Source: Propionicimonas paludicola
GTDB taxonomy: Bacteria; Actinomycetota; Actinomycetes; Propionibacteriales; Propionibacteriaceae
Assembly (NCBI RefSeq): GCF_002563675.1
Contig: NZ_PDJC01000001.1
Location: forward strand, 2,232,001-2,296,000
Length of the DNA: 64,000 nt
Reading direction: 5' to 3'
Shown here: positions 45,000-63,014 of the stretch, piece by piece
Position numbering within the stretch: the first letter of the stretch is position 1
How the letters are laid out: each line of letters opens with the position of its first letter
Made by a program: the position numbers and the translations under genes
Notes under the pieces: model-generated
The model's input: the letters and a program-made list of their open reading frames with translations, nothing else
The model's database searches: none
Told to the model about the DNA's origin: nothing

Positions 45000-45090
45000 A
45001 CGACAGCCTTGTCCTGTAACGTATCTGTAGAGCCACCTCGCAAGGGCGTTCGCAGCGTGCCCGCCCGCCGAGTTGGGCGGAAGGACGAGC

Positions 45091-46056: not shown

Positions 46057-46545
46057 ATGTCACTAGTCCACGACGTGATCGCCGAGCTGGATGCCGAGCG
46101 AGAACGGATCTGGCTGACCCTGCCTGAGGACGTCCGAGACCTCGGCAACGGGATCATCCCCCGGCTCACCGGACCCAAGAAGCAGTACTTCACCTCGCTG
46201 CTGTACGCCGACGGCGAAGCCCGCACCCTGGCCGATGAGGTGCTCTGGGGGCTGATCGAGATCAGCCGCAAGCCGGGGGCCGATCTGGACACCCTGAAGA
46301 TGGTGGTCAACCAGATCGTCGACTACAAGGCCGACTTCTTCGACTTCGTGGGGCTGCCACTCATCTGCAAGTGGACGCACCGCTACGCCGAGGGCGCCCG
46401 CGCCGCCGAGAGCCTCGAGGAGTTCCGCGAGGTCACCGGCGCCGCTCTGTCCTACATGAACCGGGTGCATATGTGGATCCAGAGCGTCTTCCCCTGGGGA
46501 ATCGCCAGCGCGTTCCCCCGTGCCGACGCCCGCCAGACCGCCTGA
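46057..46545 (+). CDS. Cassette 1 protein A: helical protein, cucumopine-synthase C-domain-like
   Basis: A 162-residue all-helical cytoplasmic protein. It shares with the A proteins at 51399 and 60361 the blocks VIAELDAERERIW, PRLTG, ADGEARTLADEVLWG, YKADFFDFVG and YMNRVHMW...FPWG. From memory this pattern resembles the C-terminal helical bundle of cucumopine/mikimopine synthases, which join histidine and 2-oxoglutarate. No catalytic residue can be assigned. ATG start with GAAAGGA upstream; protein B follows after 19 nt. It could instead be a subunit of an unrelated enzyme. Confidence 0.55.
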   Translation: MSLVHDVIAELDAERERIWLTLPEDVRDLGNGIIPRLTGPKKQYFTSLLYADGEARTLADEVLWGLIEISRKPGADLDTLKMVVNQIVDYKADFFDFVGLPLICKWTHRYAEGARAAESLEEFREVTGAALSYMNRVHMWIQSVFPWGIASAFPRADARQTA

Positions 46546-46564
46546 ACACCCGAGAGGAACCTTC

Positions 46565-46993
46565 ATGATCATCGACTTCATCGTCGACGGCACCCAGACC
46601 TGCGCCATCCGGATCTTCGAGGACGTCGTCCCCGAGACCGCGGCCAAGCTGCGGGAGGCACTGCCGATGACGACCCGCCTGCAGCACGCCACCCTGGTCG
46701 GCGACCAGCTCTTCGCCGTCCTGCCCATCGTGATGCCGATGGAGAACCCCATGCTCACTCAGGACATCGGGGATCTGCGCCGCAAGGAGAAGGGCACCGT
46801 GGCCGGCACCGTGGTGTTCTACGCGCCCCGGCAGGTCTTCGGCGTCACCTACAGCGACGATCTGGCCGTTGAGCCGCTACTCAACAGCTACATCGGCGAG
46901 GTCATCGACGGCATGACCGAGCTCGCCCTGGTCGGCGAGCAGGTCTGGCGTAAGCAGGACAAGGTGGTTGAACTCCGGCTCCGAGCCGACTAG
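46565..46993 (+). CDS. Cassette 1 protein B: cyclophilin-like (DUF3830-like) protein
   Basis: A 142-residue beta-rich protein. The start (IRIFEDVVPETAAKLREALP) follows the cyclophilin-like pattern of DUF3830 and cucumopine synthase N-domains, followed by LQH, MEN, YAPRQ and SYIGEVIDG, all conserved in the three B paralogues. True cyclophilin catalytic residues are absent, so prolyl isomerase activity is unlikely. Probably works as a complex with protein A. GAGAGGA ribosome site. Confidence 0.6.
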   Translation: MIIDFIVDGTQTCAIRIFEDVVPETAAKLREALPMTTRLQHATLVGDQLFAVLPIVMPMENPMLTQDIGDLRRKEKGTVAGTVVFYAPRQVFGVTYSDDLAVEPLLNSYIGEVIDGMTELALVGEQVWRKQDKVVELRLRAD

Positions 46994-47008
46994 TCCGCAC
47001 ACCGCGAT

Positions 47009-47038
47009 GGGGCCGTCTGGAGACTTCCGGACGGCCCC
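47009..47038 (+). terminator. Terminator after cassette 1
   Basis: Arms GGGGCCGTCTGG and CCGGACGGCCCC (one G-U pair) around loop AGACTT, 15 nt after the B stop codon. Confidence 0.75.
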
Positions 47039-47072
47039 TCGCCGTCCCCGGCCCCGTCCATTACGCCGCAGT

Positions 47073-47094
47073 TACATGTATGTAAACCATTCAG
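47073..47094. promoter_or_regulatory. Candidate operator before the amino-acid ABC importer
   Basis: TTACATGTATGTAA (itself palindromic) followed by ACCATTCA, the same layout as at 45967 and, inverted, at 51332. A separate inverted repeat CCATTCG / CGAATGG lies at 47118-47151. Confidence 0.6.
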
Positions 47095-47219
47095 CAGACT
47101 CTGGCCACGAAAGAGTCCATTCGTCAATACTCGAGTCAGGCACCGAATGGCGCGACCCAACTCCTCGCGCATCACCCCTGATCCGGACCGCCACAGCCCA
47201 CCGTCGCACAGGAGTAAAC

Positions 47220-48116
47220 GTGACCCGTCCCACCACCTGGCTAGCCGCTCTAGCCACCGCCTCGCTGCTGATCACTGGCTGCAGTGCGAACACCGCAGCC
47301 AGCCCGGCCGCATCCAGCTCGGCGCCGTCCAGCCCGGCCGCGTCCAGCGCTGCCGGCAAGGTCGTCACTCTGGCCACCGATGCCAACTACCCGCCCTGTG
47401 AGTCGATCGAGGCGGGCTCGGAGACCATGATCGGCTTCGAGCCGGACATCTGGAACGCCATCGCCGCCAAGATCGGCGTCACCTTGAAGGTCGAGAACAC
47501 CGACTTCGACAGCCTGATCCCGGGCGTCCAGAGCGGACGCTACGACCTGGCCATGGAGTGCATCTCCGACCGCGAGGCCCGCGAGAAGCAGGTGACCTTC
47601 CTCGACTTCATCTACGCCGAGATCTCGGTGGTGACCACCGAGAAGTACGCCGGCCCGATCAACGACACCGACCCGCTGAGCGTCTGCGGCGAGACCATGG
47701 GCGCCCAGACCGGCTTCGACACCGTGGACCTGATCAAGAACGAGATCAACCCCGAGTGCGTGGCTTCCGGCAAGAAGGAAGTGGAGATCAAGGAGTTCCC
47801 GGACGCTCCGGCCACCTACAACGCGCTCTACGCCGGCCGGGTCGACTTCGTCGTCCAGGACACCGCGGCCGCAGCGCTGCTGAACAAGACCGCGCCGGTG
47901 AAGCTGGTCATTCACGAGAACTCCAAGCTGCCCAAGCTGTACCTCGGAATGATCTTCAACAAGGACAACGCGGCCACCATCGCCGAGTGGCAGAAGGGCC
48001 TGGAGGCGATCATCGCCGACGGCACCTACGCCGAGATCCTCAAGAAGTGGGACATCAGCTCGCTGGCCCTGAACGAGCCGGGGATCAACCTGGCCACCAC
48101 CCGGCCGATCAAGTGA
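47220..48116 (+). CDS. Polar amino acid/opine-type ABC transporter substrate-binding lipoprotein
   Basis: A 298-residue lipoprotein: signal sequence with lipobox LLITGC, a low-complexity Ser/Ala/Pro linker, then a type II periplasmic-binding fold (VVTLATDANYPPCESIEAGS, SLIPGVQSGRYDLAMECISD) of the family that includes histidine, octopine and nopaline binding proteins. GTG 47220 has GGAG upstream. Given the surrounding hut genes, histidine or a histidine conjugate is the likely cargo. Confidence 0.88.
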   Translation: MTRPTTWLAALATASLLITGCSANTAASPAASSSAPSSPAASSAAGKVVTLATDANYPPCESIEAGSETMIGFEPDIWNAIAAKIGVTLKVENTDFDSLIPGVQSGRYDLAMECISDREAREKQVTFLDFIYAEISVVTTEKYAGPINDTDPLSVCGETMGAQTGFDTVDLIKNEINPECVASGKKEVEIKEFPDAPATYNALYAGRVDFVVQDTAAAALLNKTAPVKLVIHENSKLPKLYLGMIFNKDNAATIAEWQKGLEAIIADGTYAEILKKWDISSLALNEPGINLATTRPIK

Positions 48117-48160
48117 GCATCCGGTAACCACATCCGTCCCTGAGTAGAAACGACACGAGC

Positions 48161-49063
48161 ATGGCGAACCCGGCCCATCTGCAGGCCCTGCCGATCACAC
48201 CGTTGAGGCACCCCTGGAGGTGGGTCGGGATCGCTGTGATCGCCCTTCTCATCGCCACTGTCGGGCACTCGTTGGTCACCAACGAGCGCTTCGAGTGGAA
48301 CGTGGTCTTCGAGTACCTGTTCTCGAAGCCGATCCTGTCCGGCCTGGCCATGACCATCGCACTGACCGCCGCAGCGATGGTCATCGGCCTGGCTCTCGGG
48401 GTGATCCTGGCCGCGATGCGGGTCTCCCAGAGCCAGATCTTCCGCAGCACCAGCTCGGCCTACATCTGGTTCTTCCGGGGGACGCCGATCCTGGTCCAGC
48501 TGGTCTTCTGGTACAACCTCGGCTACCTCTACCCCGAGTTCAGCATCGGCCTGCCGTTCGCTGAGCCGTGGTTCTCGACCAACATCAACGACATCATCAC
48601 CCCGCTCACCGCGGCGCTGCTCGGGCTCAGCTTGAACGAGGGCGCCTACCTGGCCGAGATCGTCCGGGCCGGCATCCTGGCGGTGCCACCGGGCCAGGCC
48701 GAGGCCGCCTCCTCACTGGGCATGACCCGATTCCAGGCGTTCCGCAAGATCGTCCTGCCACAGGCCATGCGGATCATCATCCCGCCCACCGGCAACGAGA
48801 CCATCGGCATGCTGAAGACCACCTCGATGGTCTCGGTGATCGCGCTGGCCGATCTGATGTACGCCGCGCAGAGCATCTACTCGCGCACCTTCCAGACCAT
48901 CCCGCTGCTGATCTGCGCCTCGATCTGGTACCTGCTGCTGACCTCGCTGCTGTCCTTCGGCCAGGGCTTCATCGAACGGCACTTCGGTCGCGGCGATCAA
49001 GGCGCCTCGGCCCGCCGCAGCCCGTTCCGGTTCGTCCGCACCACCTCGGAGATCGCCTCATGA
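48161..49063 (+). CDS. Amino acid ABC transporter permease
   Basis: A 300-residue HisMQ-type permease with about five to six transmembrane helices and the EAA loop EAASSLGMTRFQAFRKIVLP that docks the ATPase. Only one permease gene is present, so it probably functions as a homodimer. Its stop overlaps the ATPase start (ATGA). Confidence 0.92.
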   Translation: MANPAHLQALPITPLRHPWRWVGIAVIALLIATVGHSLVTNERFEWNVVFEYLFSKPILSGLAMTIALTAAAMVIGLALGVILAAMRVSQSQIFRSTSSAYIWFFRGTPILVQLVFWYNLGYLYPEFSIGLPFAEPWFSTNINDIITPLTAALLGLSLNEGAYLAEIVRAGILAVPPGQAEAASSLGMTRFQAFRKIVLPQAMRIIIPPTGNETIGMLKTTSMVSVIALADLMYAAQSIYSRTFQTIPLLICASIWYLLLTSLLSFGQGFIERHFGRGDQGASARRSPFRFVRTTSEIAS

Positions 49064-49833
49064 AGCCGCACAGCCATTCGGTCCAGATCCGCAACGTCTC
49101 CAAGCGGTACGGCAGCCTGGAAGTGCTGCGCCAGGTGTCGCTGGATGTCGAGGCCAACACCGTCACCTGCATCCTGGGCCCGTCCGGCTCAGGCAAGTCG
49201 ACGCTGCTGCGCGCGATCAACCACCTGATCAGCATCGACTCCGGAGTGATCCGGGTCAGCGACGAGGTGATCGGCTATGAGCAGCGCGACAACCGGCTGT
49301 TCGAACTCAGTGACCGCGATCTGTGCCGCCAGCGCAGCCACATCGGGATGGTCTTCCAGTCGTTCAATCTGTTCCCGCACCTGACCGTGCTGGAGAACGT
49401 CACCTGCGGGCTGATCACCGTCCGCCGCGCACCGAAGGCGGACGCGATCGCCACGGCCCAGCACTTCCTGGATCGGGTCGGCCTGGCCCACAAGGCAGGC
49501 GCGTATCCGGCCCAGCTGTCCGGCGGCCAGCAGCAGCGAGTCGCCATCGCCCGCGCCCTGGCCATGCAGCCGCGGCTGATCCTGTTCGACGAGCCGACCT
49601 CGGCCCTCGACCCGGAGCTGGTCGGCGAGGTGCTGACAGTCATTCGCGAACTCGCCGAGAGCAGCGACACCACCATGATCGTGGTCACCCACGAGATCGG
49701 CTTCGCCCGTGAGGTGGCCGACCAGATCGTCTTCATGGACGAGGGACGGGTGGCCGTCGCCGGCAGCGTGGCCGAAGTGTTCGGCTCCGACTCCCCCCGG
49801 ATCCGCGCCTTCCTGGACGGAAACCTGAAGTGA
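49060..49833 (+). CDS. Amino acid ABC transporter ATPase
   Basis: A 257-residue GlnQ/HisP-type ATPase: Walker [11 protein letters not shown]-loop [11 protein letters not shown], signature LSGGQQQR, Walker [15 protein letters not shown] and switch VTHE. ATG 49060 overlaps the permease stop; its own stop overlaps the next gene start (GTGA). The whole unit from the binding protein to the second SDR is therefore one operon. Confidence 0.94.
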
Positions 49834-50564
49834 GCCGGGTGCTGATCGCCGGCGGCAGCGGGCCGCTGGGCAGCGCGATCGCCGTCGAACTCAGCCGGCG
49901 CGGCTGGTCGGTCTGCGTCCAGTACCGCAGCCGCGTGGACGCCGCCAAGACCGTCTTGGGCCGACTGACCGCCGGACGGCACTGCGTGCTTCCGGCCGAC
50001 CTGCTCGACCCCCAGGAGGCGGCCAGCCTGGTCAGCCGGGCCGAGGCCCGGCTCGGCGGAACCCTGGACGCCGTGGTGAACTGCGCGTGGCCGAGCCACG
50101 CCAGCGCTCCGATCGCCGAGGCCGACCCGGCCCTGCGGGAGTCGGCCCTGGACGGCCTGCGCACCCAGCTGAATCTGGCAGCGGCCTGCGTGCCCAGCCT
50201 GCGGCAGAGCGCCGGCTCGTTCGTGATGCTCGGCGGCGCCCTGGCGCACCGCCGCCACCCCGGGCTCGGCCTCTACTCACTGAGCAAGGCCGCCGCCGAG
50301 AGCGCCTGCCTGACCATGGCGCTGGAAGAGGGCCCGCACGGAGTCCGAGTCAATGTGATCGCCCCGGGCCGGGTGCGGGTCGAACCCGACCTGGCCGAGA
50401 CCGACCCGGGCTTCGCCGCCCTGGAGGCGATCGCCGTCCAGCGGCGGAGCAGCCCGTTGCCCACTGCGGATCAGATCGCCGACCTGGCCGCCTTCCTGGT
50501 CGGCCCGGACGCCACCGCCATCACCGGGCAGGTGGTCTCGGTCACCGGAGGCGAGCAGTGGTGA
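49830..50564 (+). CDS. Short-chain dehydrogenase/reductase 1
   Basis: A 244-residue Rossmann-fold SDR: nucleotide loop [16 protein letters not shown] in place of NNAG, catalytic YSLSK and the usual C-terminal [10 protein letters not shown]. Coupled to the transporter ATPase and to the next SDR by 4-nt overlaps, so it likely acts on the imported compound or a product. Substrate unknown. Confidence 0.88.
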
Positions 50565-51328
50565 CCGGCCTGGCCGGACGGGTGGTCTGCATCACCGGTG
50601 CCGCCGAGCGGGCCGGCGCCGAGTTCGCCCGCCGCTACGTCCAGGCCGGGGCCAAGGTGATGATCAGCCACCTGCCCAGCCAGGCCGCCCAGGCCGAGGC
50701 ACTGCTGGCCGAACTCGGTTCGGCCGCAGCCGCCTGCGCCGGCGACATCACCGACCCGGCCCAGGGTCGCGAGCTGGTTGCCGCCTGCTGTGACCACTTC
50801 GGGCGGCTGGACGTCCTGGTGCACAACGCGTCCACCTTCGCGCCCCGCCCCTGGCTCGAGGTGGACGAGGCCGCCTTCGACTCCGCGCTCGGAGTGAACC
50901 TGCGCGGCCCGTTCTTCCTCAGCCAGGCCGCCGCGAAGGTGATGCTGACTCAGGGCGGCGGCAACATCGTTGCCCTGGTCGGCAACTCGCTCAGCGAGGC
51001 CTGGCCGGAGTTCATCCCGCACTCGGTGGCCAAGACCGCGCTGGCCCGGCTGATGGAGCAACTGGCGGTCGCCTTGGCGCCCACCATCGCCTGCAATGCG
51101 GTCGCGCCCAGCCAGTTCTTCCGCTCCGACGACGGGTCCAACGACCGGCTGCGCCAGGCCCGCGGCGAGGCCGCGCCGTCCGGGCAGACCGCGCAGGTGC
51201 GTCCGGGCCTCTGGATCCGAGAGGCCGATCTGGATGCAGTCTTCGCCGCACTCAGCTACCTCAGCACCTGCACTCCCCAGGTCACCGGGACCACGCTGCG
51301 GGTGGATGGGGGCAAGGCTCTGGCCTGA
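50561..51328 (+). CDS. Short-chain dehydrogenase/reductase 2, catalytic Tyr replaced
   Basis: A 255-residue SDR resembling pteridine-reductase-like members: CITGAAERAGAEFAR, HNASTFAPRPW, and C-terminal VTGTTLRVDGG. The YxxxK motif reads HSVAK, so the catalytic tyrosine is histidine. It may be a non-catalytic partner of SDR 1 or use altered chemistry. GTG start overlapping the SDR 1 stop. Confidence 0.85.
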   Translation: MTGLAGRVVCITGAAERAGAEFARRYVQAGAKVMISHLPSQAAQAEALLAELGSAAAACAGDITDPAQGRELVAACCDHFGRLDVLVHNASTFAPRPWLEVDEAAFDSALGVNLRGPFFLSQAAAKVMLTQGGGNIVALVGNSLSEAWPEFIPHSVAKTALARLMEQLAVALAPTIACNAVAPSQFFRSDDGSNDRLRQARGEAAPSGQTAQVRPGLWIREADLDAVFAALSYLSTCTPQVTGTTLRVDGGKALA

Positions 51329-51331
51329 TTC

Positions 51332-51353
51332 GTGAATGTTTACATTCACGTAA
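51332..51353. promoter_or_regulatory. Candidate operator before cassette 2
   Basis: GTGAATGTTTACATTCAC followed by GTAA; 7-bp arms GTGAATG / CATTCAC. On the minus strand it reads TTACGTGAATGTAAACATTC, the same pattern as at 45967 and 47073. Confidence 0.65.
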
Positions 51354-51398
51354 TGGAGTTGGTGTATACCTAATGACATCAACCCAGATGGAGGACCA

Positions 51399-51875
51399 AT
51401 GAGCCTGGTAACCGAGGTGATCGCAGAGCTGGACGCCGAGCGGGAACGGATCTGGCTGGACTGCCCACAAGAAGTGACCGACATGGGGCGGGGCCGAATC
51501 CCGCGCCGCACCGGCAGCCACGGGCAGTACCTCACCACCCTGATCTTCGCCGAGGGCGAAGCCCGCACCCTGTCCGATGAGTTCCTGTGGGGAATCATCG
51601 AGCTGTCCGAGACCGAGCAGCTGGACCTGCACACGCTGCAGGCGATCGTCCGTCAGATCGTCGGCTACAAGGCCGACTTCTTCGACTTCGTCGGCATGCC
51701 GCAGGCTGCCGGCCTGGTCCACCGCTACGTCCAGGCCACCCAGGTCGCCGAGAGCCTCGACGAGTTCCTGGCCCTGACCCGGGCTGCCATCAGCTACGTG
51801 AACAAGCTCCACATGTGGGTCGACGCGGTCTTCCCGTGGGGCGTAACCAACGGCTTCAAGCGCGTCGACGCGTGA
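51399..51875 (+). CDS. Cassette 2 protein A: helical protein, cucumopine-synthase C-domain-like
   Basis: A 158-residue paralogue of the protein at 46057 with an almost identical N-terminus (VIAELDAERERIWL) and YKADFFDFVGMP, YVNKLHMWVDAVFPWG blocks. GGAGGA ribosome site before ATG. Protein B follows after 16 nt, then hutH2, giving an A-B-hutH2 operon. Confidence 0.58.
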   Translation: MSLVTEVIAELDAERERIWLDCPQEVTDMGRGRIPRRTGSHGQYLTTLIFAEGEARTLSDEFLWGIIELSETEQLDLHTLQAIVRQIVGYKADFFDFVGMPQAAGLVHRYVQATQVAESLDEFLALTRAAISYVNKLHMWVDAVFPWGVTNGFKRVDA

Positions 51876-51891
51876 GGACAGGAGAACCACA

Positions 51892-52323
51892 ATGCGACTG
51901 ATCATGTCCGTCGACGGAGTCGACACCTGCACCATCCAGGTCTTCGAGGACAAGGTGCCCGGAATCGCCAAGGCACTGCGCGAGCAGCTGCCGCAGCGCA
52001 GCATCCTGCAGCACGGCAAGATCATCGGCGAGATGGTCTTCTGGACCATGCCGATCGTGGCGCCGTGGGAGAACGTCATGCGCACCGAGGAAGTGGGTGC
52101 CCTGCGTCGCAAGGAGCTCGGCCACGCCCGCGGCTCGGTGTGCTGGTACAACCCGCGCCAGCAGTTCTGCGTGGTCTACGGGGACGACCTGGCCGACGAG
52201 CCGCTGCGGATCAGCTACATCGGCGAGGTCATCGAGGGTGAACTGGAGCTGGCCCTGGCCGGCCACCGCAACTGGCTGCAGCAGGGCCAGGTGGTCGCGC
52301 TGCGGGTCGAGGACGCCGCATGA
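51892..52323 (+). CDS. Cassette 2 protein B: cyclophilin-like (DUF3830-like) protein
   Basis: A 143-residue paralogue of the B protein at 46565: IQVFEDKVPGIAKALREQLP, LQHGKIIGE, WEN, YNPRQQF and SYIGEVIEGE. Its stop overlaps the hutH2 start (ATGA), so B2 and histidine ammonia-lyase 2 are translationally coupled. This is the most direct link between the cassettes and histidine chemistry. Confidence 0.62.
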   Translation: MRLIMSVDGVDTCTIQVFEDKVPGIAKALREQLPQRSILQHGKIIGEMVFWTMPIVAPWENVMRTEEVGALRRKELGHARGSVCWYNPRQQFCVVYGDDLADEPLRISYIGEVIEGELELALAGHRNWLQQGQVVALRVEDAA

Positions 52324-53870
52324 GTCAGACCGTCGATACCGACGTGATGATCGGCGCCGAGCCGCTCAGCCTGGAGGTGGTGGTGGCGGTCGCCCGCCAC
52401 CACCACCCGGTCGGGCTGGCCGAGCAGGCACTGTCCGAGGTGGACCGGTCGGCGGCAGTGATCGCCGGCCTGGCCGCCGATGAGCGTCCGCACTACGGGG
52501 TGAGCACCGGCTTCGGCGCGCTGGCCACCGTGCGGATCCCGCCGGAGCGCCGCGTTCAGCTCCAGGAGTCGCTGGTGCGCAGCCATGCGGCCTCCAGCGG
52601 CGATCCGATCGAGGACGAGGTGGTCCGGGCCACTCTGCTGCTGCGGCTGCAGACCCTGGCCACCGGACGCACCGGCGTCCGCCGCCAGACCGTCCAGGCC
52701 TATGCCGATCTGCTGAACTCCGGGCTGACTCCGGTGGTCGGCGAGTACGGCAGCCTGGGCTGCTCGGGCGACCTGGCTCCGCTGGCGCACTGCGCACTGG
52801 CCCTGATGGGCGAAGGCGAGGTGCGTGCTCCGGACGGGGAGATCCTGCCAGCCGCGGCCGCGCTGGCCCTGGCCGGGCTGACCCCGATCTCCCTGGTGGA
52901 GAAGGAGGGCCTGGCCCTGATCAACGGCACCGACGGCATGCTCGGCCAGTTGGCCTTGGCCATCCACGACCTGAACCAGCTGGTCGACCACGCCGACCTG
53001 GCCGCAGCCCTAAGCGTCCAGGCCCTGGGCGGCTTGGACGGGGTCTTCGCCGATGACCTGCAGCAGCTGCGTCCCCATCCCGGTCAGGCCGAGTCTGCGG
53101 CGAACATCCGCCGGGCGCTGGCCGACTCGCCACTGATCGAGGCCAATCGCCGCGACGGCGCGATCCGCGTCCAGGACGCCTACTCGCTGCGCTGCGCACC
53201 GCAGGTGCACGGCGCCGTCCGGGACACCATCGCCCACGCCCGGCTGGTCGCCGAGCGAGAGCTCCGCTCCGCAGTCGACAACCCGGTGGTCACCATCGAT
53301 GGACGGGTGGAGTCCAACGGCAACTTCCACGGCGCCCCGCTGGGCTACGTGTTGGATTTCCTGGCCATCGCCGTGGCCGACCTGGCCAGCATCAGCGAGC
53401 GGCGCACCGACCGGCTGCTCGACCCGGCCCGCAGCCGCGGCCTGTCGCCGTTCCTTGCCGACGACCCCGGCGTCGACTCCGGCCACATGATCGCCCAGTA
53501 CACCCAGGCCGCCATCGTCAGCGAGCTCAAGCGGCTGGCCACCCCGGCCTCGGTGGACTCGATCCCGACCTCGGCCATGCAGGAGGACCACGTCTCGATG
53601 GGCTGGTCGGCTGCCCGCAAGCTGCGCAGAGCCCTGGACGGACTACGCCGGGTGGTGGCCATCGAGATCCTGTCCGCGGCCCGAGCCATCGACCTGCGCG
53701 CGCTGCCGGCCTCGGCGGTCAGCCAGGCCGTGATCGACCAGCTGCGCACCCGAGTGCCGGCCCCCGGCCCGGACCGCTACCTGGCACCGGAGATCGCCGA
53801 TGCCGTGGCCATGGTGGGCAGCGGAGTGTTGCTGGCCGCCGCGCGGGATGCGGCTCCGTCCGCCGCCTGA
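52320..53870 (+). CDS. hutH: Histidine ammonia-lyase 2
   Basis: A 516-residue second HAL with triad Cys148-Ser149-Gly150 (GSLGCSGDLAPL). YGVSTGFG, LINGTDGM, QDAYSLRC, NGNFHG and AMQEDHVSMGW are all intact. The selectivity pair is again Ser-His (RSHAASSG), but the following residues differ from hutH1 (GNGPLVE there, SSGDPIE here), so kinetics or substrate may differ. Coupled to cassette 2. It may handle histidine released by the cassette or a histidine analogue. Confidence 0.92.
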   Translation: MSQTVDTDVMIGAEPLSLEVVVAVARHHHPVGLAEQALSEVDRSAAVIAGLAADERPHYGVSTGFGALATVRIPPERRVQLQESLVRSHAASSGDPIEDEVVRATLLLRLQTLATGRTGVRRQTVQAYADLLNSGLTPVVGEYGSLGCSGDLAPLAHCALALMGEGEVRAPDGEILPAAAALALAGLTPISLVEKEGLALINGTDGMLGQLALAIHDLNQLVDHADLAAALSVQALGGLDGVFADDLQQLRPHPGQAESAANIRRALADSPLIEANRRDGAIRVQDAYSLRCAPQVHGAVRDTIAHARLVAERELRSAVDNPVVTIDGRVESNGNFHGAPLGYVLDFLAIAVADLASISERRTDRLLDPARSRGLSPFLADDPGVDSGHMIAQYTQAAIVSELKRLATPASVDSIPTSAMQEDHVSMGWSAARKLRRALDGLRRVVAIEILSAARAIDLRALPASAVSQAVIDQLRTRVPAPGPDRYLAPEIADAVAMVGSGVLLAAARDAAPSAA

Positions 53871-53876
53871 GCCAAC

Positions 53877-53894
53877 TGTCTCGAATCCGAGACA
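53877..53894. promoter_or_regulatory. Candidate HutR (IclR) operator before hutU
   Basis: Perfect palindrome TGTCTCGAATCCGAGACA (7-bp arms, AATC centre), matching the iclR-hutH1 site. It lies 78 nt before the hutU ATG, between hutH2 and hutU. Confidence 0.78.
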
Positions 53895-53972
53895 CCAGCA
53901 GCCCTGCAGGCGGTAGCCGAGGGCGCGGATCCGTCCTTCAATGGAACCGCTGAGACAATCCGAGGAGAACCG

Positions 53973-55622
53973 ATGACCCACGAGTCCGTCCGCGCCCCCC
54001 GCGGCACCACCATCTCGGCCAAATCCTGGCAGACCGAGGCCCCGCTGCGGATGCTGATGAACAACCTCGATCCCGAGGTGGCCGAGCGTCCCGAAGACCT
54101 GGTCGTCTACGGCGGCACCGGACGGGCAGCCCGCTCCTGGGCGGCCTTCGACGCCATCGTCGACACCCTGCGCGACCTGGAGGCGGACGAGACCCTGCTG
54201 GTCCAGTCCGGCAAGCCGGTCGGGGTGTTCCGCACCCACGAGTGGGCGCCGCGGGTGCTGATCGCCAACTCCAACCTGGTCGGCGACTGGGCCACCTGGG
54301 AGCACTTCCGCAAGCTGGAAGCCGAAGGCCTGATGATGTACGGCCAGATGACGGCCGGCTCGTGGATCTACATCGGCACCCAGGGCATCCTGCAGGGCAC
54401 CTTCGAGACCTTCGGTGCCGTGGCCCGCAAGCGCTTCGGCGGCACCTTGGCCGGAACCCTGACCCTGACCGCCGGCTGTGGCGGGATGGGTGGAGCCCAG
54501 CCGCTGGCAGTCACCATGAACGAGGGCGTAGTGCTGATCGTGGACGTGGACGCCACCCGGCTGGCCCGCCGAGTCGAGCACGGCTACCTCGACGAGTACA
54601 CCGACGACTACGCCTCGGCCGTGGCGAAGGTGACCGCGGCCAAGGCCGAGCGGCGTCCGCTCTCGGTGGGCCTGGTCGGCAATGCCGCCGAGGTTTTCCC
54701 CCGGCTGCTGGCCGACGGCGTTGAGATCGACGTGGTCACCGACCAGACCAGTGCCCACGACCCGCTGAGCTACCTGCCGATCGGCATCTCGGTCGAGGAA
54801 TGGCACCAGGCTGCCGCCGCCGACCCGGTCGGCTTCACCGAGCGGGCCCGCGCATCGATGGCCGCTCACGTCGAGGCCATGGTCGGCTTCCTGGATCGCG
54901 GCGCCGAGGTCTTCGACTACGGCAACTCGCTGCGCACCGAGGCCGAGTTGGGCGGCTACGAGCGAGCTTTCGCCTTCCCGGGCTTCGTGCCGGCCTACAT
55001 TCGTCCGCTGTTCTGCGAGGGCAAGGGCCCGTTCCGCTGGGCCGCGCTGTCCGGCGACCCGGCCGACATCGCCGCCACCGACGAGGCCATCTTGGAGCTG
55101 TTCCCGCACGACGAGCAGCTGCGTCGCTGGATCACCCAGGCCTCCGAGAAGGTGCACTTCGAAGGTCTTCCGGCCCGGATCTGCTGGCTCGGCTACGGCG
55201 AACGCCACCTGGCCGGACTGAAGTTCAACGAGCTGGTCGCCTCCGGCAAGGTGTCCGCACCGATCGCCATCGGCCGCGACCACCTGGATTCGGGCTCGGT
55301 GGCGTCCCCGTACCGGGAGACCGAGGCCATGGCCGACGGATCGGACGCCGTGGCCGACTGGCCGCTGCTGAACGCCCTGCTGAACACCTCCTCGGGCGCC
55401 ACCTGGGTGTCGATCCATCACGGCGGCGGGGTTGGCATCGGACGCTCGATCCACGCCGGCCAGGTGATCGTGGCCGACGGCACCGAGCTGGCCGCGCAGA
55501 AGATCGCCCGGGTGCTCACCAACGACCCGGGCACCGGCGTGATGCGCCACGTCGACGCCGGCTACGAGCGGGCCCGTGAGGTGGCTCGCGAGCGCGGCGT
55601 CCGGATCCCGATGGAGAGCTGA
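53973..55622 (+). CDS. hutU: Urocanate hydratase
   Basis: A 549-residue NAD-dependent urocanase that converts urocanate to 4-imidazolone-5-propionate. [46 protein letters not shown] and the C-terminal [15 protein letters not shown] are family motifs. AGGAG ribosome site precedes the ATG. First gene of the hutU-M20-hutF-hutI operon under its own operator. Confidence 0.97.
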
Positions 55623-55623
55623 G

Positions 55624-56805
55624 ATGGGCGCCAACCAGCTCCTCGCCGAGCTCGAGAGGGTCGGACGCACCCGCGGCGGCGGCTACACCCGGCTGGCCTG
55701 GGACGACGCCACCATGACCCTGCGGGAGTGGTTCGCCGGACAGGCGGCCGCGCTCGGCCTGGAGCTCACCGAGGACGGCAACGGCAACCAGACCGCCTGG
55801 TGGGGCTGCGGCTCGGACGCGCTGCTAGTCGGCTCACACCTGGATTCGGTGCCCGAAGGCGGACCGCTGGACGGCCCGCTCGGGGTGGCCTCGGCGCTGG
55901 CCGCCGTGGCCCGGCTCAAGGCGTCCGGGTGGACGCCGAGTCGTCCGCTGGGCGTGGTGAACTTCAGCGACGAGGAGGGCGGACGCTTCGGCGTGGCCTG
56001 CCTGGGCTCGCGGCTGGCCACCGGGGCCATCACCCCCGACGCCGCGCTCGCGCTGCGCGATGCCAGCGGCACCAGCCTGGGCGAGGTGATGCGTGCCCGT
56101 GGACGTGACCCGCGGGCTGCCGGACGGTCGGACTGGTTGGGTTCGGTGAGTCAGTACGTCGAGCTGCACGTCGAACAGGGCCGCTGGCTGGCCCCGCACG
56201 GAACCGCGGTCGGGGTGGCCTCGGCCATCTGGCCACACGGCCGCTACCGCTTCGAGTTCTGCGGCGAGGGCAACCACGCCGGCGCCACCGCCATGGCCGA
56301 CCGGCACGATCCGATGCTGGCCTACGCGGCCACGGTGCTGGCCGCCCGCGAGCTGGCCACCAGCTCCGGACAACGGGCAACGCTGGGACGAGTGCTGGTC
56401 GAACCGGGCAGCACCAACTCGATCCCGTCCAAGGTGGTGGCCTGGCTGGACGCCCGGGCCGACGCCGAGCCCGCCCTGGAGGCCCTAGTCAACGGGATCG
56501 TCCGGCGGGCCAAGGCCGCGGCCGAGTTCGACGGCACTCAGGTGAACTTCCGGGCCGAGTCGACCACCGGCGCCGTCGAGTTCGACCACGCGCTGCGGCA
56601 TCGGCTGGCCGCCCTCCTGGACGCCCCCGCGCTGCCCACCGGAGCCGGTCATGATGCCGGCATCCTGGCCGCGAAGCTGCCCACGGCCATGCTGTTCGTC
56701 CGCAACCCCACCGGCATCTCGCACGCCCCCGAGGAGACCTCGACGCCCGAAGACATCGAGGCCGGCGTGGACGCTCTGACTGCCGTGATCCGGGACCTGG
56801 GATGA
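55624..56805 (+). CDS. M20-family amidohydrolase (allantoate amidohydrolase-like), probable Hut step
   Basis: A 393-residue di-metal hydrolase of the AllC/N-carbamoyl-amino-acid hydrolase group: GSHLDSVPEGGPLDG, SDEEGGRFG, ELHVEQG and GAGHDAG carry metal ligands and the catalytic Glu. It sits between hutU and hutF, an arrangement I recall from streptomycetes. No canonical HutG deformylase is visible, so this enzyme probably hydrolyses N-formyl-L-glutamate (or another late intermediate) to glutamate. ATG 1 nt after the hutU stop. Confidence 0.85.
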   Translation: MGANQLLAELERVGRTRGGGYTRLAWDDATMTLREWFAGQAAALGLELTEDGNGNQTAWWGCGSDALLVGSHLDSVPEGGPLDGPLGVASALAAVARLKASGWTPSRPLGVVNFSDEEGGRFGVACLGSRLATGAITPDAALALRDASGTSLGEVMRARGRDPRAAGRSDWLGSVSQYVELHVEQGRWLAPHGTAVGVASAIWPHGRYRFEFCGEGNHAGATAMADRHDPMLAYAATVLAARELATSSGQRATLGRVLVEPGSTNSIPSKVVAWLDARADAEPALEALVNGIVRRAKAAAEFDGTQVNFRAESTTGAVEFDHALRHRLAALLDAPALPTGAGHDAGILAAKLPTAMLFVRNPTGISHAPEETSTPEDIEAGVDALTAVIRDLG

Positions 56806-57893
56806 CCAGCGTCCCGGCGTTCGCGAACTGCCACTCGCACGCCTTCCACCGATCGCTGCGGGCCCGGACCGTCGGCGGCGCCGACTTCTGGGGCTGGCGG
56901 GACCGGATGTACGCCGTGGCCGGGCTGCTGGACGCCGACCGCTACCACCGGCTGGCCAAGGCCACCTTCGCCGAGATGCGGCTGGCCGGCTACGCCAGCG
57001 TCGGCGAGTTCCACTACCTGCACTCCCCCGACCTGGCCGAGGCCGTGATCGAGGCCGCCCGCGCGGTGGGCCTGCGGATCTGCCTGCTGTCCACCCTCTA
57101 CGAGCGGGCCGGTTTCGCCGATGAGCCGCTGCACCCGGTTCAGCAGCGCTTCGTGCTGCCGCTGGAGGTCTGGCAGAGCCGGGTCACCGGCCTGGCCGCC
57201 CGCTATGCCGACGATCCACTGGTGGTGATCGGCACCGCCATCCACTCGGTGCGCGCTGTGGCGCCCGAGCATCTGGCGGCGGCCGCCGCCACCGTGCCGG
57301 ACGCGCCCCTGCACGTCCATGTCTCCGAGCAGCCGGCCGAGAACGCCGCCTGCCTGGCCGCCACCGGACGCACCCCGGTGGAACTGCTGGCCGAGGCCGG
57401 AGTCTGGGGCCCGCGGACCACCGCCGTCCACGCCACTCACCTGACCAGGGGCGATATCGAGATCCTGGGTTCGGCGGGCAGCTACGTGTGCTTCTGCCCG
57501 TCCACCGAAGCCGAACTGGCCGACGGCATCGGGCCGTCGGTAGCGCTGCGCGAGGCGGGCGCCCGGATCACCCTGGGCTCGGACTCCAACACCGTGATCG
57601 ATGGCTTCGCCGAGGCCCGGGCACTGGCCATGCACGAGCGACTGGCCACCGGCTCCCGGGACGGCTGGACCACCGAGCAGCTGTGGCGGGCGGCCAGCGC
57701 CGACGGCCACGCCTCGCTGGGATTCTCGGTCTCCGACACCCTCACCCTGCGCCCTTCGGTGCAGACTGCCGGCATGACCGAACCGCTGTGGGCCGCCGGC
57801 GCCACCGACGTGCTGCCGCCGCCCGACCTGGATCCGGCCGAGGTGGCCGCCGAGCTGTCCGACGTGATCGACGAGCTGTGGAGCTTGGCGTGA
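56802..57893 (+). CDS. hutF: Formimidoylglutamate deiminase, short form
   Basis: A 363-residue amidohydrolase converting N-formimidoyl-L-glutamate to N-formylglutamate and ammonia. [13 protein letters not shown] has the metal-binding Hx[13 protein letters not shown] the third ligand region, HATHL the fourth and [16 protein letters not shown] the Asp and substrate loop. Usual HutF has ~450 residues; here the N-terminal ~45-50-residue beta-sandwich portion is missing because the ORF begins at the first catalytic motif. ATGA overlap with the M20 gene fixes the start. Confidence 0.88.
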
Positions 57894-59032
57894 GCACGGC
57901 GATCACCGGGATCGGCGAACTGGTCAGCTGGGATCCCGAGCGCCCGGTGCGCAGCGATGCCGCGCTGGTGATCGAGGACGACGTGGTGGCCTGGGTCGGC
58001 GATGCTTCCCAGGTTCCCGCGGCCGATGAGGTCATCGACGCGGCCGGTGCCGCCGTCATCCCGGGCTTCGTCGACTCGCACACCCACCTGGTCTTCGCCG
58101 GCGATCGCTCGGCCGAGTTCGCGGCCCGGATGGCCGGTGAGCCGTATGTGGCCGGCGGGATCCGGACCACGGTGGCCGCCACCCGGGCTGCCGGAGCCGC
58201 CGAACTCACCCGCCTGGCCAGCGCCCGGATGGCCGAACTGCGGGGCCAAGGCACCACCACTGCGGAGATCAAGTCCGGCTACGGCCTGGACGTCGCCACT
58301 GAGGAGCTGCTGCTGCAGGTGGCCGGCACCCTGACCGAGGAGACCACCTACCTGGGCGCGCACGTCGTCCCGCCCGAGCTGAGTGCGTCCGAGTACGTCG
58401 AACTGGTCACCGGCGAGATGCTCACCCGCTGCGCGCCGCACGCCAAGTGGGTGGACGTGTTCTGCGAGACCGGCGCCTTCGACGCCGACCAGGCCCGCGC
58501 CGTCCTCACTGCCGGGATGGCCGCTGGGCTATCCCCGCGGATTCACGCCAACCAGCTCGGGTACGGACCCGGCGTCCAGCTGGCCTGCGAGCTGGGTGCG
58601 GCCGCGGCCGACCACTGCACCTACCTGTCCGACGCGGACGTGGCGGCGCTGGCCGAGACCGGCGTGGTGGCCGGGCTGCTGCCCGGCGTGGAGTTCTCCA
58701 CCCGGCACCCGTACCCGGACGCCCGTCGGCTGCTGGACGCCGGCGTGCGGATCTCGATCGCCACCGACTGCAACCCGGGGACGTCGTACACCTCGTCGAT
58801 GCCGTTCTGCATCGCGCTGGCCGTCCGCGACATGGGGCTGACCCCGACCGAGGCCTTGCGGGCGGCCACCGAGGGTGGGGCCGTCTCGCTACGCCGCACC
58901 GACGTCGGCCATCTGCGTCCGGGCGCCCGGGCCGACCTAGTGATCCTGGACGCGCCCAGCCACGTCCATCTGTCCTACCGGCCCGGCGTCCCGCTGGTCC
59001 GCCAGGTGCTCATCGGCGGCCGGGTCGGCTGA
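57890..59032 (+). CDS. hutI: Imidazolonepropionase
   Basis: A 380-residue metal-dependent amidohydrolase opening the imidazolone ring to N-formimidoyl-L-glutamate. [38 protein letters not shown] and [14 protein letters not shown] are the catalytic segments. The GTG start overlaps the hutF stop (GTGA). Last gene of the Hut operon. Confidence 0.96.
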
Positions 59033-59419
59033 CCCCGTCCCCTCGCTTCGCTACCGCTCCTGCCGCCTCGCTACCGTTCCACGGGTAGCGAAGCCACCCA
59101 ACGGGTAGCGAAGCCACCCAACGGGTAGCGAAGCCACCCAACGGGTAGCGAAGCGCGTCCCGCCACACCCGTCCCTCCACACCTGTCCCCTCGCCGCGCT
59201 ACCACTCCCTCGACGGCGCTACCCGTACCCAGGTAGCACCACGACGAACGGGTAGCGCGGCCACACAGACCAGTAGCACCGTGGACGGACGGGTAGCGCG
59301 GGCTCACCAGCGGATGGTGCCCGGACAGACGGCACGGCAGATCACGCCCGAGCTTCAGCGGCAAGGCTGAAGGTCGAGGACAGAGACACCGAGGCGGCTG
59401 TGAACGCAATCGTGGCGAG
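59033..59419. repeat. Non-coding region with short repeats, including 20-bp tandem array
   Basis: This 387-nt gap contains 3.7 tandem copies of acgggtagcgaagccaccca (59081-59154), preceded by inverted copies CGCTTCGCTACC and CCTCGCTACCG (59045-59075) and followed by scattered GGTAGC motifs to ~59300. Related CGCTACCG/CGGTAGCG elements occur at 8255-8330. It has no convincing gene. It could fold into hairpins and end transcription of both converging operons. Confidence 0.85.
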
Positions 59420-60163
59420 TCAGGCCTGCGCCCGGACCGCGGCGATCGCCTCGGCCGAGGCCCCCAGAGTCGCCGAGAGCTGCGCAGCCTGCACCGTGAG
59501 CAGCCGACCGAACCGCTGGAGATCCTCCACCGAGGTCCGGTAGCGGGGTGCGCTGATACTCAAGGCACCCACGATTCGGCAGTAGTGGTCGTAGACCGGG
59601 GCAGCGACGGCGTCCACCTCGTTCTCCGGACGGGATGAGATGGCACAACCCTCCGGCCCCAGCCGGCCGTCCAGCGCCATGCCCAGCGCGGTGTCCTGGC
59701 GCGGGATCGTCCGCCCGACCCAACCCACGGCCTGCACCAACTGGCCGGGCGCGACCACCTGACGCAGGTAGAGCACCTCATCGGGTCCCAGCGGGATGCC
59801 GAGTGAGGCGACCTCCCGGGTCGCGGCGGCCAGCGCCTCCAGGTGCGGGCCGGACGTCTCGTAGAGCGGGTCATCGCGCAACGCCGCGGCCGCGAGTTGC
59901 TTGAGCCGGACTCCGGTGCGGTAGCTGCCATCGTCCTCACGCTCGACCAGGCCGTGTTGGGCCAACGTGTCCAGCAGCCGCGATGCGGTGGACGGCGACA
60001 GCGACACCGCCCGTCCCAAGCTGCTCAGGCTGGCACCGCGGTCGGCGGCCAGGACGGCGTCCAACAGGCTGAGCGCCCGATCAACAGTGCGGGTCGAACC
60101 CGCCTCTCCCGCGGACGCTGCCGCGGGACGACCGACTCGACGATGGGCCGGTTCCTGACTCAT
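59420..60163 (-). CDS. IclR-family regulator 2
   Basis: A 247-residue regulator: winged HTH (LGRAVSLSPSTASRLLDTLA) and IclR effector domain (IPRQDTALGMALDG ... VYDHYCRIVGALSISAPRYR). GGAGG precedes the ATG. Divergent from cassette 3 and therefore its likely regulator. Distinct from the first IclR in its effector domain. Confidence 0.88.
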   Translation of the reverse strand: MSQEPAHRRVGRPAAASAGEAGSTRTVDRALSLLDAVLAADRGASLSSLGRAVSLSPSTASRLLDTLAQHGLVEREDDGSYRTGVRLKQLAAAALRDDPLYETSGPHLEALAAATREVASLGIPLGPDEVLYLRQVVAPGQLVQAVGWVGRTIPRQDTALGMALDGRLGPEGCAISSRPENEVDAVAAPVYDHYCRIVGALSISAPRYRTSVEDLQRFGRLLTVQAAQLSATLGASAEAIAAVRAQA

Positions 60164-60218
60164 GGGTACCTCCGGGGTTGGGCTGCTCGAAGTCTATTTC
60201 TCATCCAGTGGCAGCCTG

Positions 60219-60245
60219 TTTCACGGATGTTACCACCCAGTGAAA
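60219..60245. promoter_or_regulatory. Candidate operator between iclR2 and cassette 3
   Basis: Inverted arms TTTCAC (60219-60224) and GTGAAA (60240-60245), with another near-copy AAATGAAAAA at 60259-60268. AT-rich relative to its surroundings. No similarity to the other two operator motifs. Confidence 0.4.
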
Positions 60246-60360
60246 GGTAATCACACCAAATGAAAAATCGGCCATTTCGGCCCTATGGTCGAGACGCGAG
60301 CAGATGCCGCAACGACAGGCCCGGCGATCAGTCGGGCAGCGAGAGAAAGGCACGGTTTCC

Positions 60361-60900
60361 GTGGTTGCACAAGCAGAGATCCGACGGGAGGTCGGGACGG
60401 TCGCGGAGGTGATCGCTGAGATCAACCGCGCCCGGGATGCCATCTGGGAGGTACCGCCGCAGGAGGTGCTGGACCTGTGCTCAGGAGTGGTCCCGCGGGG
60501 CACCGGCGCCAAGAACAACTACCTGTCGACGATGATCTTCGCCGAGAACGAACTGCGGACGCTGACCGACGAGATCCTCTGGTTCGCCTGGGTCACCGCC
60601 ACCCGCAACTCGGACGCCGACCTGGCCACCCTGGTCTCCTACATGGACGAGATGGGCCAGTACAAGGCCAACATGAACGACTACGTCGGCCTACCCGAGG
60701 CCGGCGAGGTGATGAAGCTCTACGTGGGCGGCATCCGCAAGGCGGCCAGTCTGGCCGAGTTCGCCGATCTCACCGAGTCGGTGATGACCTACATGAACCG
60801 CGTGCACGGCTGGGTGGACATCGGCTTCCCGTGGGGCCTGGTCAACGGCTTCAAGCGAATCAATCCCCTGCGCCGGATCTCCGACGCCCAGCAGGCCTGA
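60361..60900 (+). CDS. Cassette 3 protein A: helical protein, cucumopine-synthase C-domain-like
   Basis: A 179-residue, more divergent A protein. It keeps VAEVIAEI, IFAENELRTLTDEILW, YKANMNDYVGLPEAG and YMNRVHGW...FPWGLVNGF. GTG 60361 follows a GAGAGAAAGG site; an ATG 57 nt upstream lacks one. The N-terminal ~15 residues extend beyond the other paralogues. Protein B begins 10 nt after the stop. Confidence 0.55.
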   Translation: MVAQAEIRREVGTVAEVIAEINRARDAIWEVPPQEVLDLCSGVVPRGTGAKNNYLSTMIFAENELRTLTDEILWFAWVTATRNSDADLATLVSYMDEMGQYKANMNDYVGLPEAGEVMKLYVGGIRKAASLAEFADLTESVMTYMNRVHGWVDIGFPWGLVNGFKRINPLRRISDAQQA

Positions 60901-60910
60901 GGAGGGCACC

Positions 60911-61345
60911 ATGCGCATCAAGTTCAACCTGGGCGGCGAGGACGTCGCGGTCATCGAGATCTGGGAGGACAAGGTCCCCCAGCTGGCCAAGAAGATCGCC
61001 GACGCATTGCCGTTCGCGACCTACCTGCAGCACGGCAAGCTGACCGGCGATCTGCTGCTGATGCAGACCAAGATCCTGGCCGACTGGGAGAACATCTTCT
61101 ATCCCGAGGATCTGGCTGCCGAAGTGGCCGCCAAGGGCACCGAGATCCGCGGCGCCGTCTCCTATTACGGTCCCCGCCAGCAGATCTCGATCATGTACGG
61201 CAATGACATCCCACCCGAGCCGCTGCCGGTATCGGCCATCGGCTGGGTGGTCGAGGGCGCCGAGAAGCTCGACGCGATCGGTACCCAGGCCTGGCTGGAG
61301 CCGGGCACCAGGATCTGGCTCAGTCTCGAAGAGGCCTCCGCCTAG
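60911..61345 (+). CDS. Cassette 3 protein B: cyclophilin-like (DUF3830-like) protein
   Basis: A 144-residue B paralogue: IEIWEDKVPQLAKKIADALP, YLQHGKLTGDLL, DWEN, YYGPRQQ and EPLPVSAIGWVVEG. GAGGAGG ribosome site. It precedes the peptide/opine-type importer by 79 nt and is likely cotranscribed, implying its substrate is brought in by that transporter. Confidence 0.58.
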   Translation: MRIKFNLGGEDVAVIEIWEDKVPQLAKKIADALPFATYLQHGKLTGDLLLMQTKILADWENIFYPEDLAAEVAAKGTEIRGAVSYYGPRQQISIMYGNDIPPEPLPVSAIGWVVEGAEKLDAIGTQAWLEPGTRIWLSLEEASA

Positions 61346-61424
61346 AGCCACCCAAGGGCGTCGGCCGTCGCCCCCGGCTGCGCTCCCGCACCTTCGCAAT
61401 CCGCATCAAGCGAAAGAGATGATC

Positions 61425-63005
61425 ATGGAAACCGCTTCCGCCAAGGGTGGGCTCGAGTCCGGGGCGTCCCGCGCGCGTCCGGTCCGCCTGCTCAGCCGAC
61501 TGACCGTGTTCGCCGCTACAGCCGCCCTCTTCACCGCCTGCTCAGCCGGACCGGCCGCCACCGAATCCTCCTCCCCGGCTGCGCCCACGGTCCTGCGCGT
61601 CGGCGTCGTCTCACTCAGCGACGCCGACGCACTCGACCCGGCCAAGGCCACCACCACCGGCGGCTACATCCTGTCCCGCCAGCTCTTCGACACCCTCACC
61701 GAGTACGGCCCGGACGGCGCCTGGAAGCCTCAGCTGGCCGCCTCGGTGACCCCCGGCACCACCGCCGATAAGTGGACGGTCACCCTGAACGCCGCGAAGT
61801 GGAGCGATGGCAAGCCGGTCACCGCGGCCGACGTGGTGGCCACCGTGAAGCGCTGGTTCGCCAAGAAGCTCCCGCCGGCCGGCTCGCTGCCCTTCATCGA
61901 TCCGGCCAAGGTCACGGCCACCGACGACAAGACTGTCGAGTTCAGCCTGAAGTACCCCACGGTCACCTTCCCCGAGGCGCTGACCAGCCCGACCATGGCG
62001 ATCGTCCCGGCCGACTTCGACCCGGCAAAGCCGATCGGCTCGGGGCCGTTCGTCCTGGCCAGCAACGACCCGGGCGTGCAACTGGCCTTCACAGCCAACA
62101 CCGGCTACTTCGGCGGCGCGCCGGGGGCCAGTGAGCTGGAGGTGAAGAGCTTCCCGGACTCGGCAGCAGCCGCGTCCGCGCTCACCGCGGGCCAGATCGA
62201 CGTCGACGCCAGCCTCGACCCGTCCCTGGTCGACACGGTGAAGACCGCTCCCGGCTTCCAGATCTTCGACTACGCCACCAGCGGGTCGCTGACCTGGGTG
62301 ATGAACACCAAGAAGAAGCCCTTCGACGACCCGGTGGTTCGGCAGGCGCTTCGGCTGGCCGTCGACCGGCAGCAGCTGATCGATCAGGTCTACAACGGCT
62401 TCGGCAAGCTCGGCAACGACGTCTTCAATCCCTTCGACCCGATGTACAACTCCACTCTGGCCCAGCGGACCTATGACCCGGAGGGCGCCAAGAAGCTCCT
62501 CACCGATGCCGGCTACACCCTGCCGGTGAAGGTGGAGCTGGTCGGCACCAACAACCAGCCCACCAGCGAGCGCCAGAACCAGGCGCTGGTGCAGCAGGCC
62601 AAGGCCGCCGGCTTCGCGATCGACTACAAGTTCGTCGACAGCGCCACCTTCTATGGGGACGCCTACGGCACCTACCCGCTCTCGCTGAGCTACTGGGGCT
62701 TCCTGGGCATCTTCGACCAGGCCGCGTTCACGATCACCAAGACCGCGCCGTACAACTCCTCGCACTGGACCAACGCCGAGTTCGACAAGCTGTACAGCCA
62801 GGCCATCACGACCGTCGACGACACCAAGCGCAAGGAGTTGGTCGCCGGGATGCAGAAGATCGAGTACGACAGCGGCGCCTACATCGTCCCGCTGTTCTTG
62901 AGCACCGTGGTCGGTCTCTCCGACAAGGTGACCGGAGCCCAGGCCTATCCGAACTCGGACGGCGCCTTCGGCTACAACTTCCGAATCCTCGGACTCAAGG
63001 GCTGA
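61425..63005 (+). CDS. Peptide/opine-type ABC transporter substrate-binding lipoprotein (family 5)
   Basis: A 526-residue lipoprotein with lipobox ALFTACS and the SBP_bac_5 fold: TPTVLRVG-like start, KWSDGKPVTAADVV, PIGSGPFVL, VRQALRLAVDRQQLID and NSSHWTNAEFDKL. Such proteins bind peptides, nickel complexes or opines. ATG 61425 has GAAAGAGA at normal spacing; ATG 61419 is closer to the site. Cargo unknown; a bulky histidine conjugate fits the context. Confidence 0.9.
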   Translation: METASAKGGLESGASRARPVRLLSRLTVFAATAALFTACSAGPAATESSSPAAPTVLRVGVVSLSDADALDPAKATTTGGYILSRQLFDTLTEYGPDGAWKPQLAASVTPGTTADKWTVTLNAAKWSDGKPVTAADVVATVKRWFAKKLPPAGSLPFIDPAKVTATDDKTVEFSLKYPTVTFPEALTSPTMAIVPADFDPAKPIGSGPFVLASNDPGVQLAFTANTGYFGGAPGASELEVKSFPDSAAAASALTAGQIDVDASLDPSLVDTVKTAPGFQIFDYATSGSLTWVMNTKKKPFDDPVVRQALRLAVDRQQLIDQVYNGFGKLGNDVFNPFDPMYNSTLAQRTYDPEGAKKLLTDAGYTLPVKVELVGTNNQPTSERQNQALVQQAKAAGFAIDYKFVDSATFYGDAYGTYPLSLSYWGFLGIFDQAAFTITKTAPYNSSHWTNAEFDKLYSQAITTVDDTKRKELVAGMQKIEYDSGAYIVPLFLSTVVGLSDKVTGAQAYPNSDGAFGYNFRILGLKG

Positions 63006-63014
63006 CTCGAGCCG

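Follow-up and report, generated by a model that had tools for sequence, protein, structure and literature searches.

Three split cucumopine-synthase-like gene pairs in a histidine utilization locus of Propionicimonas paludicola: candidates for cleaving histidine conjugates

Why should a bacterial histidine utilization (hut) locus carry three copies of a gene pair related to opine synthases? Such a locus lies in a 64,000-nt stretch of Propionicimonas paludicola (NZ_PDJC01000001.1, 2,232,001 to 2,296,000), hereafter the window, in which coordinates count from the first letter. By reading its open reading frames (ORFs), we found three adjacent gene pairs on the plus strand, with the positions and lengths given in a preliminary description of this DNA, each encoding a helical-bundle subunit (A) followed by a cyclophilin-like subunit (B). 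These are A1 (46057..46545, 162 aa) and B1 (46565..46993, 142 aa, ATG at 46565), A2 (51399..51875, 158 aa) and B2 (51892..52323, 143 aa), and A3 (60361..60900, 179 aa, GTG start) and B3 (60911..61345, 144 aa), with A-to-B gaps of 19, 16 and 10 bp, respectively. Pairwise identities are 59, 44 and 40% among the A paralogues (A1-A3 being 42% in a three-way alignment) and 51, 39 and 35% among the B paralogues (38% for B3 against B2). The motifs singled out in the preliminary description for A and B are each invariant across the three pairs in our alignment.

Profile searches placed A1 to A3 in Pfam Cucumopine_C (PF18631) with E-values from 1.3e-32 to 1.9e-47 (1.6e-43 for A1 and 1.3e-32 for A3), and these three are all the PF18631 matches in the genome. 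B1, of the DUF3830 type, matched PF12903 above cut-off (E 5.3e-7), and all six proteins stayed without an NCBIfam name (best E 0.11). In their AlphaFold models, A2 and B2 resemble the respective halves of the Pictet-Spenglerases McbB and KslB, and the same two enzymes were the best VIA-align matches for both the A half and the B half. A is matched to Cucumopine_C and B to the DUF3830/cyclophilin-like family, the two families with which the preliminary description had proposed comparing them, and its view of the pairs as a split cucumopine-synthase-like enzyme is supported by the PF18631 matches and the models of pair 2. The two domains of the McbB/KslB/cucumopine-synthase type, the Cucumopine_C helical bundle in A and the cyclophilin-like domain in B, are present, but not on a single polypeptide: they are encoded by separate genes in all three window pairs, in 46 of 46 relatives at 41 further loci (L007-L047), and also in relatives on plasmids pRi1724, Sodalis pHS1 and Sinorhizobium pMl1. 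Across the 49 split pairs formed by the window's three and those of the 41 loci, R56, T57, D60, E61, W64, Y90-K91-A92 and P146-W147 of A and H41, E60-N61, R89-Q90 and E103-P104-L105 of B are invariant, while the motif positions L58, D96 and G148 of A and L39, Q40, P88, S108, I110 and G111 of B are relaxed to at least 90%. Together, these data make it very likely that A and B are one Pictet-Spenglerase-type enzyme cut in two. The solved structure 3kop, a stand-alone DUF3830 protein of Arthrobacter sp. FB24, is almost as like B2 as KslB is.

What would such an enzyme do in a hut locus? We consider it likely that the pairs are heterodimers cleaving imported histidine-carbonyl conjugates in a retro-Pictet-Spengler reaction to feed the Hut pathway. 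A and B would jointly form the active site, and the conjugate (a tetrahydroimidazopyridine) would be imported by a polar-amino-acid importer for pairs 1 and 2 and by a Dpp-type importer for pair 3. In line with retro-Pictet-Spengler chemistry, the pair would then protonate the imidazole carbon and the C-C bond would break, releasing histidine together with either an aldehyde or a 2-oxo acid. The histidine would be drained to glutamate by HutH, HutU, HutI, HutF and an M20-type hydrolase.

The gene context of the window is consistent with such a route. An IclR-family regulator (42623..43366, minus strand; PF01614/PF09339) is divergent from HutH-1, a histidine ammonia-lyase (43459..44961 for the matched part, its start codon being uncertain; TIGR01225 over cut-off), after which come, on the plus strand, an RpiR-family regulator found by profile match (45073..45960), A1 and B1. 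The pair is followed by a polar-amino-acid ATP-binding cassette (ABC) importer made of a binding protein, a permease and an ATPase (47202..49833, starts approximate), and by two short-chain dehydrogenases (49830..51328), all assigned by family matches; the dehydrogenases may process the carbonyl product or an epimer. Then come A2, B2 and a second histidine ammonia-lyase, HutH-2 (52320..53870; TIGR01225 over cut-off), the stop codon TGA of B2 overlapping the ATG of HutH-2 (ATGA). Downstream, still on the plus strand, lie HutU, urocanate hydratase (53973..55622; TIGR01228, E 1.5e-272), an M20-type amidohydrolase matching the allantoate amidohydrolase model (55630..56805, start approximate; NF006770 over cut-off), HutF, formimidoylglutamate deiminase (56802..57893; NF006681 over cut-off), and HutI, imidazolonepropionase (57893..59032, start approximate; TIGR01224 over cut-off). 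M20-type hydrolases have a role in actinobacterial hut loci, and the one found here probably serves the formylglutamate step. A second IclR-family regulator, also a profile match (59420..60163, minus strand), is divergent from A3, and behind B3 a Dpp/Opp-type importer begins with a binding protein and a first permease (61203..63980, plus strand, by profile matches; 61203 is the ORF start, the true start being later) and continues beyond the window with an OppC-like permease and ABC ATPase domains. The genes of a Hut pathway (hutH, hutU and hutI with a hutF or hutG branch, here hutF) are thus all present, and both hutH matches found in a genome-wide search lie at this locus. The two ammonia-lyases and the hut genes of the preliminary description are real, with models above curated cut-offs. 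Its two importers were confirmed as well, but not their designation as opine-type, as they gave generic polar-amino-acid and Dpp/Opp/Nik matches below the specific equivalog cut-offs.

By scanning one species-genome collection with two peptide patterns, we obtained the 41 loci, which divide into 30 with A1/A2-kind pairs and 11 with A3-kind pairs. Among the former, 27 show a polar-amino-acid permease match within the stretch fetched; among the latter, 10 have a DppA match behind B3, the contig ending in the remaining one. An IclR match was found in seven of the 11 A3-kind loci, in six of them divergent and immediately upstream. Five loci (L007-L011) carry the gene set of the window rearranged as importer, dehydrogenases, A1, B1, A2, B2 and HutH, with an RpiR regulator sitting between the two A/B pairs in one of them (L011). 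At least one hut gene was found in the fetched stretch of 14 of the 41 loci, and hutH lies within 12 kb of a pair in 12 of the 41 genomes, where the number of hutH genes and the genome sizes would predict 0.28 (Poisson probability 3e-16, which is overstated because one operon is common to five of the 12 and these are therefore not independent). Among more distant homologues, hutH lies within 12 kb in three of the five genomes carrying them. In L065 and L066, a split B-A pair is accompanied by RpiR, HutH, permeases and oxoprolinase genes; in L067, a homologue lying in two frames has an importer, dehydrogenases, RpiR, HutH, HutU, HutF and HutI around it. The forms in L068 and L069 are fused and occur alongside HutC, HutH, oxoprolinase and importers, and those in L070 and L071, likewise fused, alongside HutC and an importer.

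In a tree of 59 A domains, the 49 rows of the window and the 41 loci make up one side (96/88), within which A1 types (96/98) and A2 types (100/98) each form a clade and the 12 A3 types form a group that was not starred (93/100); the pRi1724 lineage is on very long branches and no position is claimed for it. Since A1, A2 and A3 each group separately with other genera, the copies predate the window's genome. Of the positions fixed differently among the three classes, four of six in B (42, 48, 49 and 54) come after invariant H41 and four of 13 in A (41, 45, 86 and 89) are near invariant Y44 and Y90-K91, a pattern of residues that is only suggestive but would fit a single catalytic centre with differing pockets. 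The three pairs are thus old, separately conserved paralogues, which probably act on different conjugates.

KslB and McbB (PDB 9ns6 and 3x27) are beta-carboline Pictet-Spenglerases resembling the window pairs in both fold halves, and KslB uses a keto acid, 2-oxoglutarate; however, both are single chains that use tryptophan as the amine and act synthetically, whereas the window pairs are two chains in a hut and importer setting. The cucumopine and mikimopine synthases Cus and Mis of root-inducing (Ri) plasmids share the same two domains, and the presumed Mis has a Y.P.Q motif in common with B (read by eye), but they are fused and carried on the transferred DNA (T-DNA), while the window pairs lie on the chromosome, are split and have diverged far from them. 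In one paper, cus and mis are T-DNA synthase genes (PMC5606197); another lists riorf22 and riorf23 of pRi1724 among the mis homologues that are not part of the T-DNA (PMC4242671). We infer that these two are the split pair at 27055-28022 of that plasmid, so that the split form as such is already known. A cucumopine-catabolic region of pAtAg67 has also been described (Hooykaas et al. 2022, as mentioned in PMC10745273). Beyond these mentions, the accessible portions of the open-licence literature described neither a catabolic nor a two-subunit member, nor three chromosomal pairs in a hut locus, nor a spread of the pair over Actinomycetota, Pseudomonadota and Chloroflexota.

A tblastn search with A2 detected relatives in 19 plasmid records, of which 16 come from Agrobacterium, Rhizobium or Sinorhizobium, and stretches of seven records were inspected. 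On pRi1724, the split pair adjoins an importer and an oxoprolinase pair; the gene next to it, flanked by rol-family genes, is fused and presumably mis. Outside the T-DNA, pRi2659 carries two divergent fused genes accompanied by hutC, hutH, hutF, hutI, hutG, hutU, an oxoprolinase pair and importers, and the surroundings on pAvF25c are similar; on Sodalis pHS1 the two genes are split and have RpiR, hutH, an importer and an oxoprolinase pair around them. Hence, importers surround the non-T-DNA homologues of pRi1724 and pRi2659 as they do in the window, with hut genes on pRi2659, but these loci are plasmid-borne, and the order on pRi1724 is B then A instead of three pairs ordered A then B. Sinorhizobium medicae pMl1, from a legume symbiont, has a split pair that closely resembles the pRi1724 one (L053, 9543-10510). 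The presumed cus of pRiO132, a fused gene adjoining rol-family genes, is identical over 829 bp to the catabolic-region gene of pRi2659 (L054 11968-12930 against L049 11929-12876, with both ends differing), and an exact copy of that catabolic-region gene is also present on pRiO132 at 94942-95889. Either a recent duplication or a gene conversion would account for the two copies, and, most simply read, a common protein core would be used for synthesis by the plant and for degradation by the bacterium.

Several observations weigh against cleavage of histidine conjugates as the function of the pairs. Within 12 kb of the pair, 29 of the 41 genomes have no hutH, and no hut gene was found in the fetched flank of 27 of the 41 loci, some flanks being short; neither was one found in the pRi1724 stretch inspected, and the pMl1 stretch shows neither hut genes nor an amino-acid importer. 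Moreover, 16 proteobacterial split-pair loci without a hut gene in the stretch share another conserved neighbourhood (L012-L014, L016, L017, L020, L021, L023, L024, L026, L027, L029, L031-L033 and L045). Judged from the annotation of one representative per family, an aldo-keto reductase and an enzyme resembling type-III glutamine synthetase each occur in 16 of 16, a MetX-like hydrolase in 15, a Rieske oxygenase in 14 and a luciferase-like monooxygenase in 13. These loci have either a different substrate or another route for the amine. Like the use of tryptophan by KslB and McbB, they favour a function in which the amine that the pairs release from Pictet-Spengler adducts is not histidine and the hut linkage is incidental. 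We regard this as improbable given the frequency of nearby hutH in the 41 genomes, the hut genes adjoining relatives on pRi2659 and pAvF25c, and the overlap between B2 and HutH-2. On Paraburkholderia pSYMBR3459 (L051, 4655-10966), a fused A-B homologue immediately follows hisG and a hisZ-like gene, and hisC is close by; this ties it to histidine biosynthesis and may point to a synthetic role. This homologue, the synthetic action of KslB and McbB and the T-DNA synthases fit pairs running in the forming direction, making a histidine-carbonyl adduct as a metabolite or as a trap for reactive carbonyls, with hut sharing only histidine-responsive control. Still, here and elsewhere the pairs are ringed by importers, regulators of the RpiR, IclR or HutC type and degradation genes, and the annotated neighbours include no candidate tailoring gene except the two dehydrogenases, so that synthesis by the window pairs seems quite unlikely.

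The B half and the substrate raise further difficulties. The top Foldseek match of B2 is 3kop, a DUF3830 protein without known function, which VIA-align puts level with McbB (17.9 vs 18.5); a B profile reaches AF2241 (E 1.1e-5) and TM1367 (0.001) ahead of KslB (0.0036); and B3 is under all Pfam cut-offs (PF04126, E 1.6e-4; PF12903, E 0.021). A non-catalytic function, in which B would act as a binder or chaperone of cyclophilin-like type and regulate histidine use together with A, is nevertheless very improbable, as VIA-align ranks the same two enzymes highest for either half and polar residues are invariant in both subunits (H41, E60, R89 and E103 of B; R56, D60, E61 and K91 of A). As to the substrate, cucumopine and mikimopine are adducts of histidine and 2-oxoglutarate with lactam forms, their synthases are reversible, and an opine lactam would be opened by an oxoprolinase. 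The window shares with histidine-opine catabolic loci of tumour-inducing (Ti) and Ri plasmids a synthase-like enzyme, an importer and hut genes, but, unlike in the Ri loci, no PF02538 (Hydantoinase_B) was found in its genome, which is 98.5% complete (Hydantoinase_A was not searched for). An oxoprolinase-type lactam-opening step as on Ri plasmids was consequently dropped for this genome. For the same reason, cucumopine or mikimopine themselves are rather unlikely substrates, and another conjugate is the likely one, provided that the Ri opines depend on their lactam forms.

If the pairs do cleave histidine conjugates, then a class of enzymes known from alkaloid and opine synthesis has a catabolic branch, and a histidine-conjugate pool that has gone unrecognised is consumed in nature. 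In that case it would also become testable whether the histidine-opine synthases arose when a catabolic gene was copied into T-DNA or whether the copying went the other way. We would give even chances to a broader proposal, in which a chromosomal, Agrobacterium-independent pathway of heterodimeric retro-Pictet-Spenglerases lets Actinomycetota, Pseudomonadota and Chloroflexota feed on natural histidine conjugates, each paralogue class having its own importer and conjugate, and in which plant-expressed opine synthases are re-deployed catabolic copies, as the 829-bp identity of the two pRiO132 copies suggests. As a catalyst, a Pictet-Spenglerase made of two proteins would be convenient, since halves from different paralogues could be combined.

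The pairs are sparsely distributed around the window's own lineage. PF18631 was found in one of 396 genomes of a phylum sample and one of 391 of an order sample, in both cases the window's own, and an A profile matched four of 60 relatives: the window's own genome, one with a fragment carrying IclR, A3 and B3 (G788), and two weak matches with nothing recognisable around them. Judged by its identical contig coordinates, G788 is the same assembly as the Propionicimonas metagenome-assembled genome L042, assigned to the window's genus, which holds the closest named relative of pair 3. hutH is present in 14 of 30 genomes of Propionicimonas (13 over cut-off) and the pairs are mostly absent, hence hut is retained without pairs there. 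No match to A2 was found among 50,697 phage records. The two short-chain dehydrogenases also stand directly behind the importer in L007-L011, where A1 comes next. Most of the proteobacterial loci with the glutamine-synthetase-III-like cluster have a TetR regulator too; from its gene content, this cluster looks like an unnamed degradation pathway for some amine, and several record names of these loci hint, as names only, at trees, sap or bark beetles.

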